In this document: piece by piece, positions 20,580 to 64,000 of the stretch | How positions within the stretch are numbered: the first letter of the stretch is position 1 | Layout of the letters: each line of letters starts with the position of its first letter | NCBI GenBank assembly: GCA_015179125.1 | Contig: WHVA01000214.1 | Span: 115,078 to 179,077, forward strand | Reading direction: 5' to 3' | DNA from: Gautieria morchelliformis | Lineage: Eukaryota > Basidiomycota > Agaricomycetes > Gomphales > Gomphaceae | DNA: 64,000 nt | Notes under the pieces: generated by a model | The model's database searches: none | Told to the model about the DNA's origin: nothing | Seen by the model: only the letters and a program-made list of their open reading frames with translations | Translations under genes and position numbers: made by a program

Positions 20580-21067
20580 TGTAAGGGCAACCCTGACTGG
20601 CTGTGGAGATCACACTACTACACAACTGACAAGGGGAAATCCAAAGTATGTATAAATGAACAGAGTATACAAGAGAGGGGATTCTCACCTGACAAGGGGA
20701 AATCCAAAGAGAAGTCTAAGGACCCCCAATGTCAGCGAGCCCATATTATACTACGCTGCGCAGCCAGGGACAACACTTGGCACCCGCCATCAACCCTGCA
20801 TCCTCCTGACCTCCCTGACCCTTGATCGACCCTTGATGCCATCTATTACGTGAGTCGCTTGATTTCCGACACTGTTCCGAGAGTGGAAGTCAGAAATTGG
20901 AGTGGAACTGGCAAGGCGAACAGAACTGGTGGAAGTTCTCCCAGAAGCGGAATCATTTCCGAAAGCGGAGGCGGAGATGGAATCGGAACTGGAAGCGGAG
21001 TCGGAAATGGAGTCGGAACTGGGTGTGGTGTTGGAACTGGAAATGGAAAACAGGGTGTCCCCTGACA
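20580..21067 (-). repeat. LTR-t solo LTR (TSD AGAGG)
   Basis: This 488-bp copy reads TGTAAGGGCAACCC...CCCCTGACA on plus. AGAGG flanks it at 20575-20579 and 21068-21072. The sense strand is probably minus, because a relative at 25531 is preceded by a purine tract on that strand. Its right half is an array of short TCGGAA(A/C)TGG-like units. Confidence 0.85.
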
Positions 21068-24383: not shown

Positions 24384-24579
24384 AGGGCAATTGGAGCAGT
24401 GGAGTGATGAAGGGGAGGACAGAGCTACTGGGTATAGGAAATAAACATGTCATGACACCTGGATACATCCTACCCTGCATGGACTCTTGGTCTAACAGGT
24501 CAATCCTGCATGATCTATGGGTAGGGCGTTCCGCCAGCCATAGGAACACCCAAAGGGGGTTGAATCGGGAATGTGATGG

Positions 24580-25070
24580 TGTAAGGGCAACCCTGGCTAG
24601 TTGTGGAGATCACACTACCACACAACTGACAAGGGGGAATCCAAAGTATGTATAAATGAACAGAGTATACAAGAGAGGGGATTCTCACCTGACAAGGGGG
24701 AATCCAAAGAGAAAAGTCTAAGGACCCCCAATGTCAGCGAGCCCGTATTATACTACGCTGCACAGCCAGGGACAACACTTGGCACCCGCCATCAACCCTG
24801 CATCCTCCTTGACCACCCTGACCCTTGATCGACCCTTGATGCCACCTATTATGCGAGTCGCTTGATTTCCGACACTGTTCCGAGAGTGGAAGTTGGAAAT
24901 TGGAGTGGAACTGGCAAGGCGAACAGAACTGGTGGAAGTTCTCCCAGAAGCGGAATCATTTCCGAAAGCGGAGGTGGAGATGGAATCGGAACCGGAAGCG
25001 GAGTCGGAAATGGAGTCGGAACTGGGTGCGGTGTCGGAACTGGAAATGGAAAACAGGGTGTCCCCTGACA
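24580..25070 (-). repeat. LTR-t solo LTR, second copy (TSD GATGG)
   Basis: 491 bp, nearly identical to 20580-21067. GATGG flanks it at 24575-24579 and 25071-25075. Confidence 0.86.
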
Positions 25071-56432: not shown

Positions 56433-57113
56433 TGTTACGTATCGAGATTTCCACTAAGTCGGAACTGGAAAGGACAGCGGCTTCAACTTATAGGTTGCGC
56501 CCCCAATGAACTATCGTCCTAGGTATTTCGGAAATGAGTCGGAAGTTGGAAAGTACTGAGCCAAAGGTTTGGTCGGAACTTGAGGCGGAACTGAGGCGGA
56601 AAGCGGAAGACGGAGAGACTGAGATCTTGCTAGACTCGCTGTGCTAAGAACAGGAGATGGAGCGAAGGAAATCAAGTATCGAAGGTGATTATCTGATTTC
56701 AGAATAACAGACATACATGAGGGGGTTTTTATACAAAGTGCAGAGCAACAAGTAATGGTGTTGTACTAAGCAAATTCCGGAGGAAGCGGAAGTCGAGTAC
56801 AATGTGTGGGAACTAACTAATTGGGAACAATGGGACTACAAGGGGGGTTCAGGGTAAGGTAGAACAATGGCAAAGAACAAGGGGTCGGGAAAACATATCT
56901 GACAACGAACTACAAGGGTGACCGGATATATGGTTTGATGGATGGCGAGGTGGGTCCGGTGGGTCCGAGTAATAGAGTCGAAAGAACAAGGGAAATGTAC
57001 AAGGGGCGGAATGTCGGAAATGTCGGAGGGGCGGAACGTTGTGCGGAACTATTGGAGGGGCGGAAGGAGTGGCGGAACTGAGGGTCGGAAGTCGGAAATG
57101 AACGGTCGTAACA
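56433..57113 (-). repeat. 3' LTR of element V
   Basis: 681 bp; in sense TGTTACGACCG...GATACGTAACA. The purine tract AGAAGGGAGATAC precedes it. The TATA box (TGTATAAAAA on minus) lies at 56726-56736 and the predicted RNA start AATCAGATAAT at 56688-56698. Confidence 0.9.
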
Positions 57114-57159
57114 GTATCTCCCTTCTAAGGTCGAGCCCCGCGAGACTACAAGTCGGAAT

Positions 57160-57200
57160 CACGTGACCTGTGAACAAACGCGTCGGAGTTTGAAATATAG
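57160..57200 (+). promoter_or_regulatory. Promoter-like motifs of the antisense gene of element V
   Basis: CACGTG (57160-57165), a bHLH-type site, and AAATATAG (57193-57200), a TATA-like box, lie between the 3' LTR and the ATG at 57236. Both read in the direction of the antisense gene. Inference from motifs only. Confidence 0.4.
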
Positions 57201-57235
57201 GCGGGAAACAAGACGCGTCTTCTGTTTACTCCGTC

Positions 57236-58441
57236 ATGAGCTCTTCAGTCGATTTCTCTAAAATGTCCAGTGCCGAGATGAAGCAGCACTTTGCTGATAT
57301 TCTTGCGCAGAAGGAACTGGCCGAGAAGCGCGAGGCCGAGGAAGCTGCGCGGAAAGAGAGGGAGCGGCTGGAGGAGGAGCGCAAGGAACTGGAGCGTCGG
57401 GAGCAGGAACGGAAGGAGAAGGAGGAGCGTGACCGTAAGCGTCGCGAGGAGGAGTCGCACGCCCGTGAAGAACAACGGAAACGGGATGCGGCCGAAAAGG
57501 CTGCGGAAGAAAAGGCCGTGGCGGAAAAGGCAGGGAAGTTCCGGGTGAGTCGGAAATGTCGTGGGGAGGTTCCGGTGCTCACAGAGAACTGCCAGAGAGT
57601 TGCCGATTCCGAGGGGGAGTCGGAAGCGGAAAGCACGCCGACTCCAGAGGGCAAGGGGAAGCAAAAAGAAAGTGCTCCCATGCCGAACGTAGTTGAGGAG
57701 CGGAAACGGAGGGCGGACGAGTTCCAGCAGGCTCGGAAAGAGAAGCTGGCTCGAATACTGGAGTTGCGAGAGCTGGGGCCGGAAAATCCTGCGACCCGGA
57801 AAAGGAAGACCAGGGACGGTGAGGAGGAGAAGGCTCCTTGCGATACGTGCGAGGTCAAGGGCCTGGAGTGCGTGTGGTCGGAAAATCCGCGGGAGACGGC
57901 CTGCGAACGGTGCCGGGACAAGAAGTGCCGTTGCGTGGTGGATGGGTGTGCCGCGAGGGTGGAGCGGAAACGGCGCAGGGTTGAGACCGAGGGGCCTGAA
58001 ACCCCCAAGTCAAAACCGGGACCAAGCGGAAAGAAGGCGGAAGGATTTCCGGTGACCGGGATGTCTGAGGCAGCGGTGCTGAAACGCTTCAGCATGGCGT
58101 CTCCGTTACTAGACATCGCGGAGTCGCTGAGGGGAATCCGGAAAATCCAACGCGGGATCCGGAAACTGCTGACGGATATGGCGGTGGTTCAGGAACAGCA
58201 GTTGCTGTCGTTCCAGAACCAGATGACCGTCATGTCGGCGGTCCTGGAGCAGTTCAAGCGCGAGTACCGGTGGCGGAACGAGATGGTCCGGGAAAGGATG
58301 GAACTGCGGGTGCAGGAGGAGAACGGGGCGGAAACGAGGGAACGGGTAGACACGGAGTTGGTGATCGTCGAGGTAGGAGGGTCGGAGAAGGATCCGGAAG
58401 CGGAAAGGGAGGTCGAGGCGGAGACCATGAGGGAGGAGTAG
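57236..58441 (+). CDS. Antisense accessory gene of element V: coiled-coil protein with Zn2Cys6 pattern
   Basis: 401 codons without intron, ATG 57236, TAG 58439-58441, on the strand opposite to gag-pol and converging on the pol end (150 bp apart). Residues ~10-105 form a highly charged Glu/Lys/Arg helix (coiled coil). Residues 202-233 hold Cys202, 205, 212, 223, 226 and 233, spaced C-x2-C-x6-C-x10-C-x2-C-x6-C with an extra Cys231, the arrangement of fungal Zn2Cys6 DNA-binding clusters. A basic patch (RVERKRRRVE) follows. Residues ~275-350 are a second helical region (KIQRGIRKLLTDMAVVQEQ). A nuclear DNA-binding or chromatin role is likely by family; why a retroelement carries it is unknown. Element II has a decayed counterpart at the same place, which argues that it belongs to the element and is not captured by chance. 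Confidence 0.8.
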   Translation: MSSSVDFSKMSSAEMKQHFADILAQKELAEKREAEEAARKERERLEEERKELERREQERKEKEERDRKRREEESHAREEQRKRDAAEKAAEEKAVAEKAGKFRVSRKCRGEVPVLTENCQRVADSEGESEAESTPTPEGKGKQKESAPMPNVVEERKRRADEFQQARKEKLARILELRELGPENPATRKRKTRDGEEEKAPCDTCEVKGLECVWSENPRETACERCRDKKCRCVVDGCAARVERKRRRVETEGPETPKSKPGPSGKKAEGFPVTGMSEAAVLKRFSMASPLLDIAESLRGIRKIQRGIRKLLTDMAVVQEQQLLSFQNQMTVMSAVLEQFKREYRWRNEMVRERMELRVQEENGAETRERVDTELVIVEVGGSEKDPEAEREVEAETMREE

Positions 58442-58544
58442 ATGTCGAAAAACCTGTAGATAATTTCTTGAAGTGTCGGAAAATAGGATATCGGAAGATT
58501 AATCGGTTTTTGATAAATGTCCTGAGAACTGTGAAAGCAATGGT

Positions 58545-58592
58545 GTCGGAAATGAGGTCGGAAATGAGGTCGGAAATGAGGTCGGAAATGAC
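58545..58592. repeat. 4 x 12-bp minisatellite GTCGGAAATGAG
   Basis: Four tandem units run from 58545 to 58592, the last ending in C. The array abuts the pol stop codon (58592-58594). It is an extreme case of the CGGAA enrichment of element V. Confidence 0.85.
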
Positions 58593-61500
58593 TAGGGCGC
58601 GGAAATGGGGCCAGGCTTGTCAGGATATGACTTGTGGAAATCAGAGACGAGGTCAGAGGCGTGGTCAAGTTCCGTGGCGGAAATCCACGAAGTCTCTTCG
58701 TCAGTGTTTTCATAGCCTGCCCACTTGACTAGGTACTGGAGTTGGCAGCGGTATCTTCTGTCGAGCTTGGAGTTGAGAATTTCCGAAATCTCATATTCCG
58801 GTTCTCCGTCGATGACGACTGGCGGAGGCGGAGGTTGTTCTCGATTCGGAATTGTATTCGGAACTGCTGGCTCAAGCATAGAGACATGGAATACCGGATG
58901 TACTGCGCGCATATTGTCAGGAAGTCTGAGGGTGAAAGAACGACTGCCGGCCTTAGCGATGATCTCGTAAGGACCGAGGTATTTCTCAGAGAGCTTCTTC
59001 GAGGGGCGAGTGGTGCGGAAGTTTTCCGCTTTGACAAAGGCTTTGTCGCCTATCTCGAATGCCGGTTGCGGAAGGCGTTTCCGATCGGCGGAAGTTTGGT
59101 ATCTCTTCTGGGCAGCTGTAATGTTCTCTCGGAGGTGCTGGTGAAGGTCGTCAAGTTCCACAACGAAATCTCGGGCTCTTGCAGAGGCGAGGTCGCGTTC
59201 AGGGTGGATGGCGAGATTCGGGTGGTAGCCCTTGTTGGCGTAAAAGGGTGAAATTCCGGTGGTAGCGGAAGGCGCATTGTTGTAGGCAAATTCCGCGAGT
59301 GGAAGAAGGTCGGACCAATTGCTATGTTGGTAGTTGCAATAGACGCGGAGATACTGCTCAAGGGTCTGATTAGTACGTTCCGTCTGTCCGTCTCCTTCGG
59401 GGTGATAACCGGAGGTGAAGTGGAGTTTCATGTCGAGAGCCTTGCCGAGTGTGCGGAAAAAGGAGGACACAAATTCGGATCCACGGTCGGAAGTGACATG
59501 GGAAGGTATTCCGTGCTTGGAAAAGACGTGGAGCACAAAGAGCTGTGCGAGCTGGGCGGAAGTTATGGTGTCGTAGGTCGGAATAAAGATGGACTGCTTT
59601 GTGAGGCGGTCAACGATCACTAGAATGGTATCATAGCCGGATGACTTAGGAAGTTTCTCAATGAAATCCATGGATATTGAATTCCACGGTTGTTCCGGGA
59701 TCGGAAGTTGCTTCAGGAGGCCGTAGGGTTTGTGACGTTGAGGCTTGGCTCGCATACAGGTGGTGCATGACTTGCAGTAGTCTTGGACCATCGTGCGGAG
59801 GAGAGGCCAAGTATAGGTACGTCGGATTATGTCGAGGGTCTTGTTCTGGCCTTGGTGTCCTGAGAGCGGATGATCGTGGCTTTGCTGGAGCACGCGAAGT
59901 CGTAGATCGTTGGTGTCCGGAACGTAAATCCGGGACTTGTACCGGAGAAATCCGTCGGAATCGAGGGACCATCCAGGACTGGTGGGGTCATCGAGGTGGG
60001 TTGCGGAGGTGGGGTCGGAACGGAGTGCGGAACGGATGTCGGAATGGAGAGACTCGGTGTCCATAATAATTGAGGCGCGGAGTAGCGGAAACTGCAATGC
60101 TGTGGCACGCAGGGACGATGCCAGTTGCTCAGTGGAGAATACTGGGCGGAAATTGTGCGGATTAACGCTGGCATAGTCGCTACTTCCCTCTTTTGGGTAG
60201 ACGTCCCAACGTCTAGTGAGCGCGTCGGGTTTTGCTCCGAGCTTTCCGGGGCGGAAACGGATCACCATGTTGAACTGTGAGAGGTATTCAGACCAGCGGA
60301 CTTGACGGCGAGTCAAAATCTTAGTGGTTGCAAAATACTCAAGGTTCTTATGATCCGTTACAACGTCGATCGGATAAGTTGGACCTTCGAGGTAATGTCT
60401 CCAGATTTTGAAGGCTTCGAAAATCGCAAGTAGTTCCTTATCGTGGACGTCGTAGTTGAGTTCCGGGGCGGAAAAGGTGCGGGAATGAAAGGCGATCGGA
60501 TGAATTTCTCCGTCGTCGGGTGAAATGATGGAAAGAATGGCGGCTAGCGCGTAGTCAGAAGCGTCGGTTTCGAGTACAAGTTGGGCATCAGGAATCCAGA
60601 AACCGAGTATGGGAGCCGTGGTGAAGGCCGATTTGAGAGCTTCAAATGCGGAACGGCATTCCGGTGTGAAATTCCATGGGGCACCCTTCCTGGTGAGACG
60701 CGTGAGCGGAACAGTAATGTCGGAAAAATTATAAATGAAACGCCGGTAAAAGTTGGCGAAGCCAAGGAAAGACTGCACATCCTTAACACGTCGGGGTTCC
60801 GGCCATTCTTGAATTGCCTTGACCTTGTCCTCTGCCATGGTAAGACCTGTTGGAGAGAGGATGTAGCCGAGGTATTCGACCGTGTCGCGATGCCATTCGC
60901 ATTTCTCTGCTTTTGCGTAGAGATGGTGTTTGCGTAGGCGGCGGAGTACTTCGCGGACATGTTCCCGATGTTTTTCCGGTGTGTCAGAATAGATGAGGAT
61001 GTCGTCAATGTAGACTAGAACGCATACGTCGAGGAGGTCGGAAAATACGTCGTTCATGAATCGCTGAAAAGCGGCGGGAGCGTTGGTTAGACCAAAAGGC
61101 ATGACAGTCCACTCAAAGGCACCGTAGCGGGTGCGGAAGGTGGTTTTCCACTCGTCACCTTCCCGGATGCGGACAAGGTGATAAGCGTGCCGGAGGTCAA
61201 TTTTGGTGTAGATCTTCGCCCTGCGGGGAGTGTCGAGTAAGTCGGAAATGCGCGGAAGCGGATATTTGTCCTTTTTAGTGAGGGCATTGAGTCCGCGGAA
61301 ATCGACGCAGAGGCGGAGAGATCCATCCTTCTTCTTGACGAAGAGGACCGGAGCGCCGTGCGGAGACAGCGAAGGGCGGATAAAGCCCATGTTGAGATGT
61401 TCATCGACGAACTCTCGGAGAGTTAGGAGTTCACTTTGCGAAAGAGAGTAGATCGGTCCAAGGGGCGGAGATGCTCCTTCTTCCAAATCTATCTTCAAGT

Positions 61501-62301
61501 CGTAAGGTCGATGTTCAGCAGGTTTGTCGGCTTTGGCCTTATTGAACACGTCCGGGAAGTCACGATATTCTTCCGGAACTGAGCTCATGTCGACCGGAGC
61601 GGAAGTCGAGGCGGAACGAGCCTTGACTGAAGCCGAATCGGAGAGGTGAAGCTGGAAGACGGTCGTATCATCTTGCCGTTGCAATACGCGGAAAGCGGTG
61701 GCGGAAACGAGCGCAATTCGAGGGGCTTCGAGGGGCGGAGGTGCTAAAGCGGGACCGGAGTGCGGAACTGAATCCACGAGCGGAGTTGCAGAAGAGGCCT
61801 GAGCCATCTTTGCAGAAGACGTCGGAATAGACGGAAGTTGATCCGGGGTACGGAACTGTATTTGACCCAATGCCCAGTTAATCGACGGATTATATCGGGT
61901 GAGCCAATTGTGTCCTAGTACAACGGAACAGCTAGCATCTAGCGGAGTAACGTAAAACGTAACTTCATGGTTGTCCCCAGTAGCGAAACGGATAGACAGA
62001 TCCACAACTTGGGAAATTCCCGTGTTGGAAGACCCGTCGAAAAGGCGGAGCGGAATAGTCGGAATGTTGCGGGTCGGAAGTTTATGTTTCAAAACAAAGT
62101 CGGAATCGAGGAAACAATGAGTCGAACCGGAGTCGACCAATGCTGTAAACGGGGGTGCGGAAATGGTGTCGGAAGTGAGCGGAACAGAGAGAGAGTCGGA
62201 GGACGAAAGAGCGGATGCGTTGAGTTTAACCTCGTTTGTCGCACGAATGGGGTCAACACAGCCCTCAGCTCGTGCGGAGGCCGGAGGACTGCTGACTATT
62301 T
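58592..62301 (-). CDS. Pol polyprotein of element V (protease, RT, RNase H, integrase, chromodomain)
   Basis: Minus strand, a single open frame of more than 1,180 codons. The protease starts with ALVDSGSTHCFLD, with VVLGHNWL as second motif. The RT has GAPVLFVKKKDGSLRLCVDF and the catalytic YIDD (about 61000). RNase H has ETDASDYALAAIL. Integrase has its HHCC finger (HDHPLSGHQGQNKTLDII, CKSCTTCMRAK) and triad (SMDFIEKLP, VTSDRGSEFVSSFF, EGDGQTERTNQ). The chromodomain is YEISEILNSKL..LQYLVKWAGY. There is no ATG before the protease; the frame is open back to the A run at 62299-62305, so pol is made by a -1 shift from gag. All catalytic motifs are intact, so this enzyme set may still work. Confidence 0.93.
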
Positions 62302-62305
62302 TTTT
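62291..62305 (-). promoter_or_regulatory. Probable -1 ribosomal frameshift site between gag and pol (element V)
   Basis: In sense the gag end reads TCA AAA AAA TAG. Seven A (plus 62299-62305) form an A-AAA-AAA slippery heptamer immediately before the gag stop (62296-62298). In the -1 frame the sequence is open without interruption into the protease. Just downstream, UCAGC/GCUGA and AGUCC/GGGCU can pair in interleaved order, a possible pseudoknot. Confidence 0.65.
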
Positions 62306-63722
62306 GAATCCGCAGCGGGAACCGCTTCGGATTTCTCTTCCGTCTTTGCTGCGCGGCCCTTGGCCTTAGCAGCGGAGGCGGAAGCGCGAGTGCAGTCGCG
62401 AGCGACGTGACCTCCTTTGCCGCAGAAGAGGCAAAGGTTGTTGTCCATGCGACGCTGGCGTTCTACAGGGGTTAGTTTTCCGTCCTTCCCAAGTTTGTCG
62501 GAAAGATCCGGGGTGCTCTTCCGGGCGTTGGTGTTAGAACCAGAGGCCTGGTTGTTCCGAGGGGTGTTGTTGTTGTTCCGGTTGCCGGAGTTGGATCCGG
62601 AACTGTTGTTGTTGTTGTTTCCGGAGTTGGTGTTTCCGGAATTGGTCTTCTTCTTGTCTTTATCAGACTTCTTGTCGGAAGACTTGTCGTTCTTGCTCTG
62701 GGCGGAAGTTTCACGAGCAATCTCGGAGTGTCTTTCCCAGTAGCGCGAATCGATGGATTGGGCGAGGTTGCGGAGGTCGGTAAGGGTGGCGGGTTTTCCG
62801 ACGCGGGCAATTTCATCCTTGATGCGGGATGGCAAGCCCATGTAAAACTGGCGTCGGAGTGCGGCTTCTCCCCATTGGACTCGAGGAGCGAGCTGCTGAA
62901 ACGTGACGATATATTTAGCTATCTTATGAGTGTCTTTCATGCGAAGCTTATCGAGTTCGTTTTCCGCATCGGCTTCCATATCAAATGGTCCGAAGTTGCT
63001 GCGGAGTTCGGAAATGAAATTGGGGTAATCGTCGGCCCAGTCGACGAGAGCGAACGGATCCATGAGGGCGGGTTCGAAATAGTCGAGCGCCGTGCCTCGG
63101 AGATAGGAAAGGGCATAATTGACCTTTCGTTCGTCGTCGGGAAAGGCGTCGGGACGATCACGGAAATTGAGTTGAAGCTGAACCAGAAATGGCTGGAGCT
63201 TCTTGGGGTCGGAACCGTCGAACTGATCTGGTTCGCGGACCTTTGTCTTGGGGCGTGGTGGTGCTTGGGCCGGGCGCTGGAGTTGTCCGGCTAGCATGGC
63301 GATGGCTTGTGCAAGATCCGGAACTGGCGCGGGCGGAACTGGGTTGGCGGGAATCTGAGGTGGAATTGGAGGTGGAGGACCGCCGGGGGACCGCCGGGTG
63401 GGCCGCCATGAGGGCCGCCTGGAGGGCCGCCTGGAGGTGGTCCTGGTGGAGGTGGTGGTGGTGGAGCTGGGCGTCGGAATGACGCTGCTGTTTGTTCGCC
63501 GCTGCTACTCGTCGAATTCCCGTCGTAGTCGGGATTGTCGTCGGGATTAGCGTCGGGAACTTCTTCGAAACGTTGCGGAAAAGCATCGGAAAGCTCATCG
63601 TCGGCACGAGAGCTGCTGGAGGGTTCCGCGTGCCTTGGTGCTGCGGATCTAAGACTGCCAAAATAAGAGAGAGCTTCGACAGCTCCTGCTCGAGCTGAAG
63701 TAGCTGTGGTACGAGGAGGCAT
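62296..63722 (-). CDS. Gag of element V (one homopolymer frameshift)
   Basis: Minus strand, ATG 63722, TAG 62296-62298, about 475 residues. A Ser/Ala-rich start leads to a Pro/Gly tract (GGPPGGPHGGPPGGPP). There the frame changes because the G run at plus 63385-63389 has five instead of six bases; this may be a real mutation or a sequencing error. The capsid core follows (KVREPDQFDGSDPKKLQPFL, ALSYLRGTALDYFEPAL, QSIDSRYWERHSE). A Asn/Ser-rich linker and the zinc knuckle CLFCGKGGHVARDC (about 62400-62441) come last. Gag forms the particle and binds RNA. Its last codons, DSKK, are the slippery site for pol. Confidence 0.88.
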
Positions 63723-63743
63723 AGTGATAGTTATCGGGTGGGA

Positions 63744-63754
63744 ATCAGATAATA
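63744..63754 (-). promoter_or_regulatory. Putative self-priming primer-binding site (element V)
   Basis: Two nt after the 5' LTR the sense strand reads ATTATCTGATT. Its exact complement, AATCAGATAAT, is the predicted RNA start in the LTR (56688-56698 on minus; also in the solo LTR near 41680). Confidence 0.7.
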
Positions 63755-63756
63755 CT

Positions 63757-64000
63757 GTTACGTATCGAGATTTCCACTAAGTCGGAACTGGAAAGGACAG
63801 CGCTTCAACTTATAGGTTGCGCCCCCAATGAACTATCGTCCTAGGTATTTCGGAAATGAGTCGGAAGTCGGAAAGTACTGAGCCAAAGGTTTGGTCGGAA
63901 CTTGAGTCGGAACTGAGGCGGAAAGCGGAAGCGGAGAGACTGAGATCTTGCTAGACTCGCTGTGCTAAGAACAGGAGATGGAGCGAAGGAAATCAAGTAT
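63757..64000 (-). repeat. 5' LTR of element V, partial
   Basis: It begins TGTTACGTATCG on plus like 56433 and matches it nearly base for base until the window ends. It shows a few differences from the 3' LTR (for example AGTCGGAAGTCGG versus AGTCGGAAGTTGG), so the insertion is young but not brand new. Confidence 0.9.

Follow-up and report, generated by a model that had tools for sequence, protein, structure and literature searches.

An allelically hypervariable antisense gene for a Zn2Cys6-like protein in a CGGAA-rich Gypsy chromovirus of Gautieria morchelliformis

Introduction

In a Ty3/Gypsy chromovirus of Gautieria morchelliformis, a two-exon gene appears to run opposite to gag and pol in the interval between pol and the 3' LTR. 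It is a hypervariable cassette: the trees of the gene and of pol conflict, and elements with nearly identical backbones carry strongly divergent genes. The carrier is also filled with the word CGGAA, to which the encoded protein may bind. The element lies at the end of the 64 000-nucleotide stretch of DNA analysed here (the window), and that its antisense gene is real and under selection is in our judgement nearly certain. An earlier note on this DNA had pointed to the gene and its cysteine cluster; the intron, the allelic hypervariability and the CGGAA motif go beyond it.

The answers of LTR retrotransposons to host silencing are largely an open question; sequence-specific anti-silencing is described for the plant VANDAL DNA transposons in the available text of PMC5735166. 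A putative regulator carried by the element itself and a target word visible in the genome, combined with alleles exchanged naturally among backbones that hardly differ, would allow a direct test. It is also uncommon in the population genetics of mobile elements for old, shuffled alleles to sit on a backbone that is homogeneous.

Methods

The searched genome comprises 122 Mb in 1113 contigs. The 401-residue translation of the unspliced frame listed 106 matches (103 scored of 1080 candidates), which are 64–100% identical except for three fragments, and a query spanning integrase to chromodomain gave 95 pol matches, the ones scored of 7262 candidates. The 50 gene copies aligned are a non-random sample: L001–L030 are the best unspliced matches, L031–L038 were picked for open frames, and L039–L050 were picked for pol that is 99–100% identical, with no gene among the matches listed for the 401-residue query. 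Rates were estimated by NG86, and word counts in coding sequence were compared with synonymous-codon shuffles.

Results

The carrier element

The features of the element are as follows, with the evidence in brackets.

56433..57113, minus strand: 3' LTR, 681 bp, with ends TGTTACG...CGTAACA (sequence comparison)
56433..64000, both strands: CGGAA accumulation, 145 sites, 114 on the plus and 31 on the minus strand (word counts)
57114..57125, minus strand: purine-rich tract adjoining the 3' LTR, a probable polypurine tract (read in the sequence)
57226..58116, minus strand: ORF of 296 residues overlapping the antisense gene on the gag-pol strand (ORF list)
57236..57544, plus strand: exon 1, 103 codons, charged and helical by composition (ORF; edge from the G/GTGAGT donor)
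57545..57595, plus strand: inferred intron, 51 nt, phase 0, GTGAGT ... CTCAC ... CCAG (copy alignment)
57596..58441, plus strand: exon 2, 281 codons plus TAG (copy alignment)
57839..57949, plus strand: Zn2Cys6-like cluster, C-x2-C-x6-C-x10-C-x2-C-x6-C plus a further invariant Cys (copy alignment; Pfam Zn_clus below cut-off)
58097..58357, plus strand: predicted helix of 87 residues, a probable dimerizing coiled coil (AlphaFold2 single-sequence model of exon 2)
58592..62140, minus strand: pol, with protease, RT, RNase H, integrase, SH3 and chromodomain (ORF and domain matches)
62296..63297, minus strand: gag with a CCHC knuckle (ORF and domain matches)
63756..64000, minus strand: 5' LTR, truncated where the contig ends (sequence comparison)

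The ORF list and the Pfam matches in the window identify the carrier as a Ty3/Gypsy chromovirus with gag and pol on the minus strand: gag, the order PR-RT-RH-INT, a chromodomain and LTRs are all present, and the pol domains matched are RVP, RT, RNase H, integrase, Tf2-1 SH3 and chromodomain. From the edge of the 3' LTR to the antisense start codon there are 122 bp, and the purine-rich tract falls within this presumed antisense promoter region (57114–57235). The 199 nt common to both LTRs of the window element are 98–100% alike; in four other elements, compared over 502–509 nt of both LTRs, the values are 99.8, 99.8, 98.0 and 97.4%. These insertions are recent.

Exon structure of the antisense gene

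The earlier note had reported an intact 401-codon gene antisense between pol and the 3' LTR. The plus-strand ORF (57236–58441, 401 codons), its place and its strand are borne out, but the copies indicate two exons and a protein of 384 residues rather than 401, since the longer count would take in 17 residues of the intron. Across the 50 aligned stretches G/GTGAGT is kept, a variable stretch comes next, and a branch-like CTNAC or TTAAC precedes CAG or TAG. A slightly looser pattern finds the donor in 46 of the 50 copies, all 46 of which have G/GTGAGT itself; the copies lacking it are L026, L043, L047 and L048. Splicing yields a frame of 375–424 residues in 41 of the 46, and among the other five L025 and L027 end at contig ends, L029 and L030 are damaged and L050 is deleted. 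Thirty-three of the 41 spliced frames are open unspliced as well. Eight of the 46 copies (L039–L042, L044–L046 and L049), with introns of 55 or 56 nt, are open solely when spliced. Copies other than the window copy that have an intact frame contain introns of 48–57 nt. Within the set L039–L050 (n = 12), eight genes are intact once spliced and four are internally deleted. We infer that the gene is expressed and its transcript spliced.

The spliced frames of L046 and L061 are longer (424 and 423 residues), and the tail added in L046 is similar to the C-terminal end of the window allele, a sign of mosaicism within the gene.

Selection

Forty copies were compared with the window copy. In 16 of them, with gene dS of 0.495–1.39, dN/dS is 0.12–0.21, and in the 24 closer ones it is 0.12–0.47; these values point to purifying selection on the gene. 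Differences favour third codon positions of the plus frame in nine of nine copies counted (73/64/155 in L039). The ORF is more than a product of chance, because at least 232 gene loci exist, the codon-position bias is consistent and dN/dS is low. The 296-residue ORF of the minus strand is open over its full length in four of 15 copies (L001, L003, L037 and L041). Among 13 copies selected because their spliced frame is long, all 13 have an open plus frame after splicing, and 12 have stops in all three minus frames. A chance ORF and the minus-strand ORF as the real gene are both rejected, on account of the four of 15 open copies and the third-position bias. Neutral decay of the gene beside a gag-pol under selection, which the earlier note had named as evidence against its proposal, is rejected as well, given a dN/dS of 0.12–0.21.

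Linkage to the element and gene losses

The antisense gene lies 99–553 bp (median 143 bp) downstream of pol in 74 of the 95 pol matches listed, and all 74 pol-paired genes are antisense, none being on the same strand. These pairs are confined to the pol matches listed; at least 232 distinct gene loci remain in the same genome after repeats and fragments were removed by hand, and 74 of them could be paired with one of the pol matches listed. The earlier note had proposed a search for homologues antisense beside pol and had staked its claim on other elements carrying the gene, and both expectations hold in this genome.

The other 21 of the 95 pol matches have no listed gene, and four of these 21 were found on reading to hold internally deleted genes. 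In L043, L047, L048 and L050 an internally deleted gene stands beside pol that is 99–100% identical. The deletion junctions of L043, L047 and L050 differ and have short overlaps, as from template jumps; these different junctions exclude a common deletion lineage and make the losses independent. Deleted genes beside pol of such identity suggest that the gene is dispensable in cis, at least lately.

The encoded protein

Zinc clusters of the Zn2Cys6 type have the spacing C-x2-C-x6-C-x5-12-C-x2-C-x6-8-C. The window ORF has six cysteines in the exact order C-x2-C-x6-C-x10-C-x2-C-x6-C, as the earlier note had read it. There are two extra Cys in the block of the window copy, and the last one is kept without exception in an alignment of 12 copies. 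In this alignment of exon 2, where the other 11 copies are 67–81% identical to the window copy, Cys 82, 85, 103, 106, 113 and 118 are invariant in all 12, and Cys 92, the third of the six, is kept in at least 90%. Pfam Zn_clus matches 11 of the 12 copies at E values no higher than 10, the lowest being 0.00089, and is the sole Pfam family matched by most of them; the window copy scores 16.2 bits against a curated cut-off of 21 bits, which it does not reach. At E 0.1 Pfam finds nothing in the unspliced 401-residue frame, the fungal-specific middle domain is absent among the Pfam matches of the 12 copies, and a genome-wide Zn_clus search listed 17 matches of 90 candidates, among which the antisense gene does not appear. 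The spacing and the weak Zn_clus similarity favour a Zn2Cys6 nature, whereas the score of the window copy does not; the cluster is here called Zn2Cys6-like.

The AlphaFold2 model of exon 2 predicts helices at residues 168–254 and 31–59. Its mean pLDDT is only 64.5, with block means of 92–97 over residues 181–240 and values below 50 for most of the Cys cluster, which is not confidently modelled. Cluster, linker and coiled coil is the order found in many zinc-cluster factors.

Protein searches for homologues elsewhere gave one protein, P0001; some of them scored the ~8000 candidates with most words in common with the query, among which coiled-coil words may have crowded out others. P0001 (Gautieria morchelliformis, 339 residues) resembles exon 1 by eye over its first ~65 residues; BLAST matches it at the N-terminus only, over the first 28 residues (86% identical). 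The remainder of P0001 is other sequence with PF20414, and the protein is either a chimeric gene model or a gene fusion. Searches of solved structures returned weak matches, with no zinc cluster among them.

A hypervariable cassette

In six elements compared with the window, pol segments are 97–100% and LTR segments 92–100% identical but gene segments only 72–91%; gag is 99–100% identical in the five of the six that hold it. In these six elements the sharp drop comes at the antisense start codon, and high identity returns at the pol stop. Among 44 copies there are 111 pairs whose pol sequences are less than 1% apart; the genes of these pairs differ by 0.2–29.9%, and in 34% of the pairs by more than 12%. 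Six copies whose pol sequences are 1.0–2.0% apart carry three alleles, A, B and C, which differ by 25–26% (A–B), 22–23% (A–C) and about 30% (B–C).

In 23 copies chosen from the 44, each allele forms one clade of the gene tree with 100% bootstrap, and pol rejects A, B and C as clades (p-AU 0.008, 0.016 and 0.024). Conversely, the young backbone (ten copies) as a clade is rejected by the gene (p = 3e-71) and is not rejected by pol (p = 0.32). These p values are not strict, since the allele groups were named after the gene distances had been seen. Recombination between co-packaged RNAs would be a natural cause of the conflict between the trees. Old alleles have persisted although the backbone itself is homogeneous.

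The CGGAA word

The 145 CGGAA sites of the element compare with 14.4 predicted from the first 50 kb of the window, ten times background; eight 5-kb control stretches contain 120, of which 65 are in L063 and 55 in the other seven. The excess extends into coding sequence. Against 1000 synonymous-codon shuffles, pol has 44 TTCCG (mean 13.9, maximum 25), the highest z of all 5-mers, and 16 CGGAA (mean 5.6, maximum 12). In synonymous shuffles of gag, nine CGGAA (mean 3.9, maximum 9) and nine TTCCG (mean 2.6, maximum 9) both merely tie the maximum, and the antisense gene has 21 CGGAA (mean 9.9, maximum 19) and three TTCCG (mean 0.9, maximum 4). With pol and gag pooled, CGGAA is in excess in all three codon phases. 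The plus strand of the LTR has 16 CGGAA and one TTCCG, and the counted copies of alleles A, B and C have 16–22 sites per kb, with no clear difference between alleles. A motif acting at the RNA level only is disfavoured by the excess in pol over synonymous shuffles in both orientations, and a dicodon preference by its spread across the three phases. A fixed spacing of CGGAA dimers yielded nothing convincing beyond some direct 12-nt spacing.

The neighbouring Gypsy element is not enriched (CGGAA/TTCCG 6/0 against 3.8/1.6 in the pol frame and 2/2 against 1.8/0.5 in the integrase frame), and two Copia frames show no CGGAA enrichment over synonymous shuffles. In the Copia sequence at 187–2730 of L070 the 5-mers most over-represented against such shuffles are CTCGA and CGGCA (z 4.7 and 4.6), weaker than CGGAA in Gypsy and perhaps another family-specific word.

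CpG-transition decay is a mark of CpG methylation and deamination. The pol tail has 18 motif sites, of which 11, 13 and eight are changed in the old copies L031, L038 and L030; nine, 11 and seven of these changes are single CpG transitions (together 27 of 32), as expected if dead copies are CpG-methylated. In the pol tail of L038, 32 of 70 CpG are now TG or CA. Over 11 copies, pooled and with non-independent pairs, motif retention in the pol tail is 0.75 against 0.78–0.83 for control words and so not better; two old copies keep much fewer sites, seven and five of 18. In the gene, where protein constraint could contribute and the pairs are again not independent, retention is 0.48 against 0.27–0.32.

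CGGAA in a second family

A second chromovirus-like Gypsy family, read as one copy from L063 (1–3480) and L070 (2952–5736), has pol of 38–41% amino-acid identity and an LTR that abuts the pol stop, and the antisense gene is absent from that copy. LTR relatives lie in the window at 20580–21067 and 24577–25070. CGGAA is the top 5-mer both in the pol of this family (17 against 4.3, maximum 9 in 400 shuffles) and in its gag (12 against 3.8, maximum 8 in synonymous shuffles). This family is the main result against a strict pairing of gene and motif: with the motif present and the gene missing from the copy read, a host factor may be what uses the motif, or the antisense protein may act in trans. 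L064 and L069, whose pol is closer (51–65% amino-acid identity over the matched parts), are not comparably CGGAA-rich. Behind L064 and L069 lie the stretches L071 and L072, which may stop short of the gap between pol and LTR of these old elements; neither stretch showed a gene like the antisense one. L069 is old and CpG-depleted, with ten CGGAA against 3.8 and 29 TGGAA against 16.5; the TGGAA excess is possibly a decay product of former CGGAA sites.

Discussion

Zn2Cys6 proteins classically contact CGG triplets. We give about an even chance to binding of CGGAA by the antisense protein and hold any direction of its effect with less assurance. That the gene encodes an element-borne antisense regulator acting on the CGGAA arrays, working like plant VANC or HBZ of HTLV-1, is a reading that we regard as evenly balanced. 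On this reading, the gene would be a resident, selected gene of the chromovirus family. Its antisense transcription would probably start on the side of the 3' LTR, and removal of one intron would give the message for a 384-residue protein with an N-terminal charged helix, a Zn2Cys6-like cluster, a linker and a long C-terminal coiled coil. The probable targets of the protein would be the CGGAA words found in the LTR, in gag and pol and in the antisense gene itself; by way of so dense an array it would control the chromatin or transcriptional state of the family, most likely so that its members stay expressible despite silencing. Recombination during reverse transcription would shift cassettes from one backbone to another, and a form of balancing selection, such as evasion of host silencing directed at particular alleles, would stop any one allele from sweeping. 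The earlier note had suggested a role in transcription control or counter-silencing; such a role would gain in specificity from the CGGAA saturation. In its fullest form the proposal becomes a modular, allelic anti-silencing system, in which the spliced antisense protein, with long-separated alleles swapped over a young backbone, recognizes CGGAA words written by selection even into gag and pol codons, and the gene-less second family exploits it in trans. This extended version is tentative, and we find it doubtful.

The CGGAA arrays might instead attract a host transcription factor or chromatin protein, hit upon independently by at least two Gypsy families, with the antisense gene doing something else. 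The second family, which is CGGAA-rich in pol and gag and whose single copy read lacks an antisense gene, fits such a host factor, and Zn_clus matches other than the antisense gene exist in the genome (17 listed). However, L064, L069 and the Copia frames are not comparably rich, even if the old L069 may have lost its sites, and a motif type that matches the domain type of the encoded protein would be an accident; we consider this account unlikely. Self-restraint resembling HBZ is in our view also unlikely. Here the antisense protein or RNA would bind the LTR, repress gag-pol and limit copy number, and rare alleles would be free of the repression that common ones impose, which would keep several old alleles alive. 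Position, antisense direction, splicing and a layout of DNA-binding domain and coiled coil would match HBZ as far as the available text of PMC4793531 describes it, negative frequency dependence would explain the allele diversity, and the LTR has its own CGGAA sites, nearly all in one orientation. Against this, CGGAA also fills the coding sequence of gag and pol, which LTR control would not need, and its density shows no clear allele difference.

Two further explanations concern the cassette itself. Its divergence might reflect faster mutation and not recombination, and in L031–L033, L035, L037 and L038 gene dS is indeed 0.50–0.96 against a pol-tail dS of 0.18–0.27. Yet the gene and pol topologies conflict, each rejecting the groups of the other, and identity shifts abruptly at the start codon and the pol stop, which leaves mutation rate a very improbable cause. 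A neutral passenger, derived from a piece of a host gene that the element acquired a single time, would agree with the existence of gene-deleted copies but is hardly tenable: it is already contradicted by low dN/dS at high dS, by the conserved splice signals and by the presence of the gene beside most of the listed pol.

Comparison with known systems

The position of the gene is not unique. As the earlier note had pointed out, antisense ORFs are known in some plant Gypsy elements; those of Retand, Grande and RIRE2 are described in PMC11963269 (available text). In Retand such an ORF lies between pol and the 3' LTR, with a TRP28 domain in 97% of Retand clusters; DNA binding is predicted, and about half of the elements have tandem-repeat arrays in the same region (PMC11963269). 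Retand differs in being a plant non-chromovirus with another domain, and the available text describes tandem repeats, not a word spread over gag and pol, and makes no mention of introns (PMC11963269). A Zn2Cys6 gene antisense between pol and the 3' LTR, of which the earlier note knew no description, was not found among the titles and abstract openings listed from the open-licence literature. These likewise contained no report on antisense or Zn2Cys6 genes in fungal Gypsy elements, on CGGAA in such elements or on Gautieria transposons, and the words antisense and zinc are absent from the available text of a survey of fungal LTR elements (PMC3248453).

With fungal Zn2Cys6 factors the protein shares the order and spacing of the cysteines and basic residues in the cluster. 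It differs in that the window copy falls short of the Pfam cut-off, that the gene is carried by a retrotransposon, and that no fungal-specific middle domain is among the Pfam matches.

HBZ contains a coiled coil, and we know of no comparable cassette shuffling for HBZ of HTLV-1. HBZ is the product of an antisense gene transcribed from the 3' LTR, has a spliced form and acts as a regulator (PMC4793531, available text). The present gene is likewise antisense beside the 3' LTR, with splicing read from sequence alone. HBZ is a bZIP protein, not a zinc cluster, and HTLV-1 is a retrovirus.

To our knowledge, VANC is not a Zn2Cys6 protein. It is the element-encoded anti-silencing protein of the Arabidopsis VANDAL transposons, for which binding and methylation loss have been demonstrated (PMC5735166, available text). 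Both systems have an element-encoded protein with highly variable regions and a dense short motif in one orientation (114 of 145 sites here) that in VANDALs is rare in other elements (PMC5735166). VANDALs, however, are DNA transposons, and the VANC21 motif resides mainly in non-coding tandem repeats (PMC5735166), whereas the word described here also fills coding sequence. CGGAA density is high in the present element, yet the motif is common to the second family and is thus not element-specific. We assign the gene to neither group; on our best reading, it would be closest to VANC in its logic and to HBZ in its anatomy.
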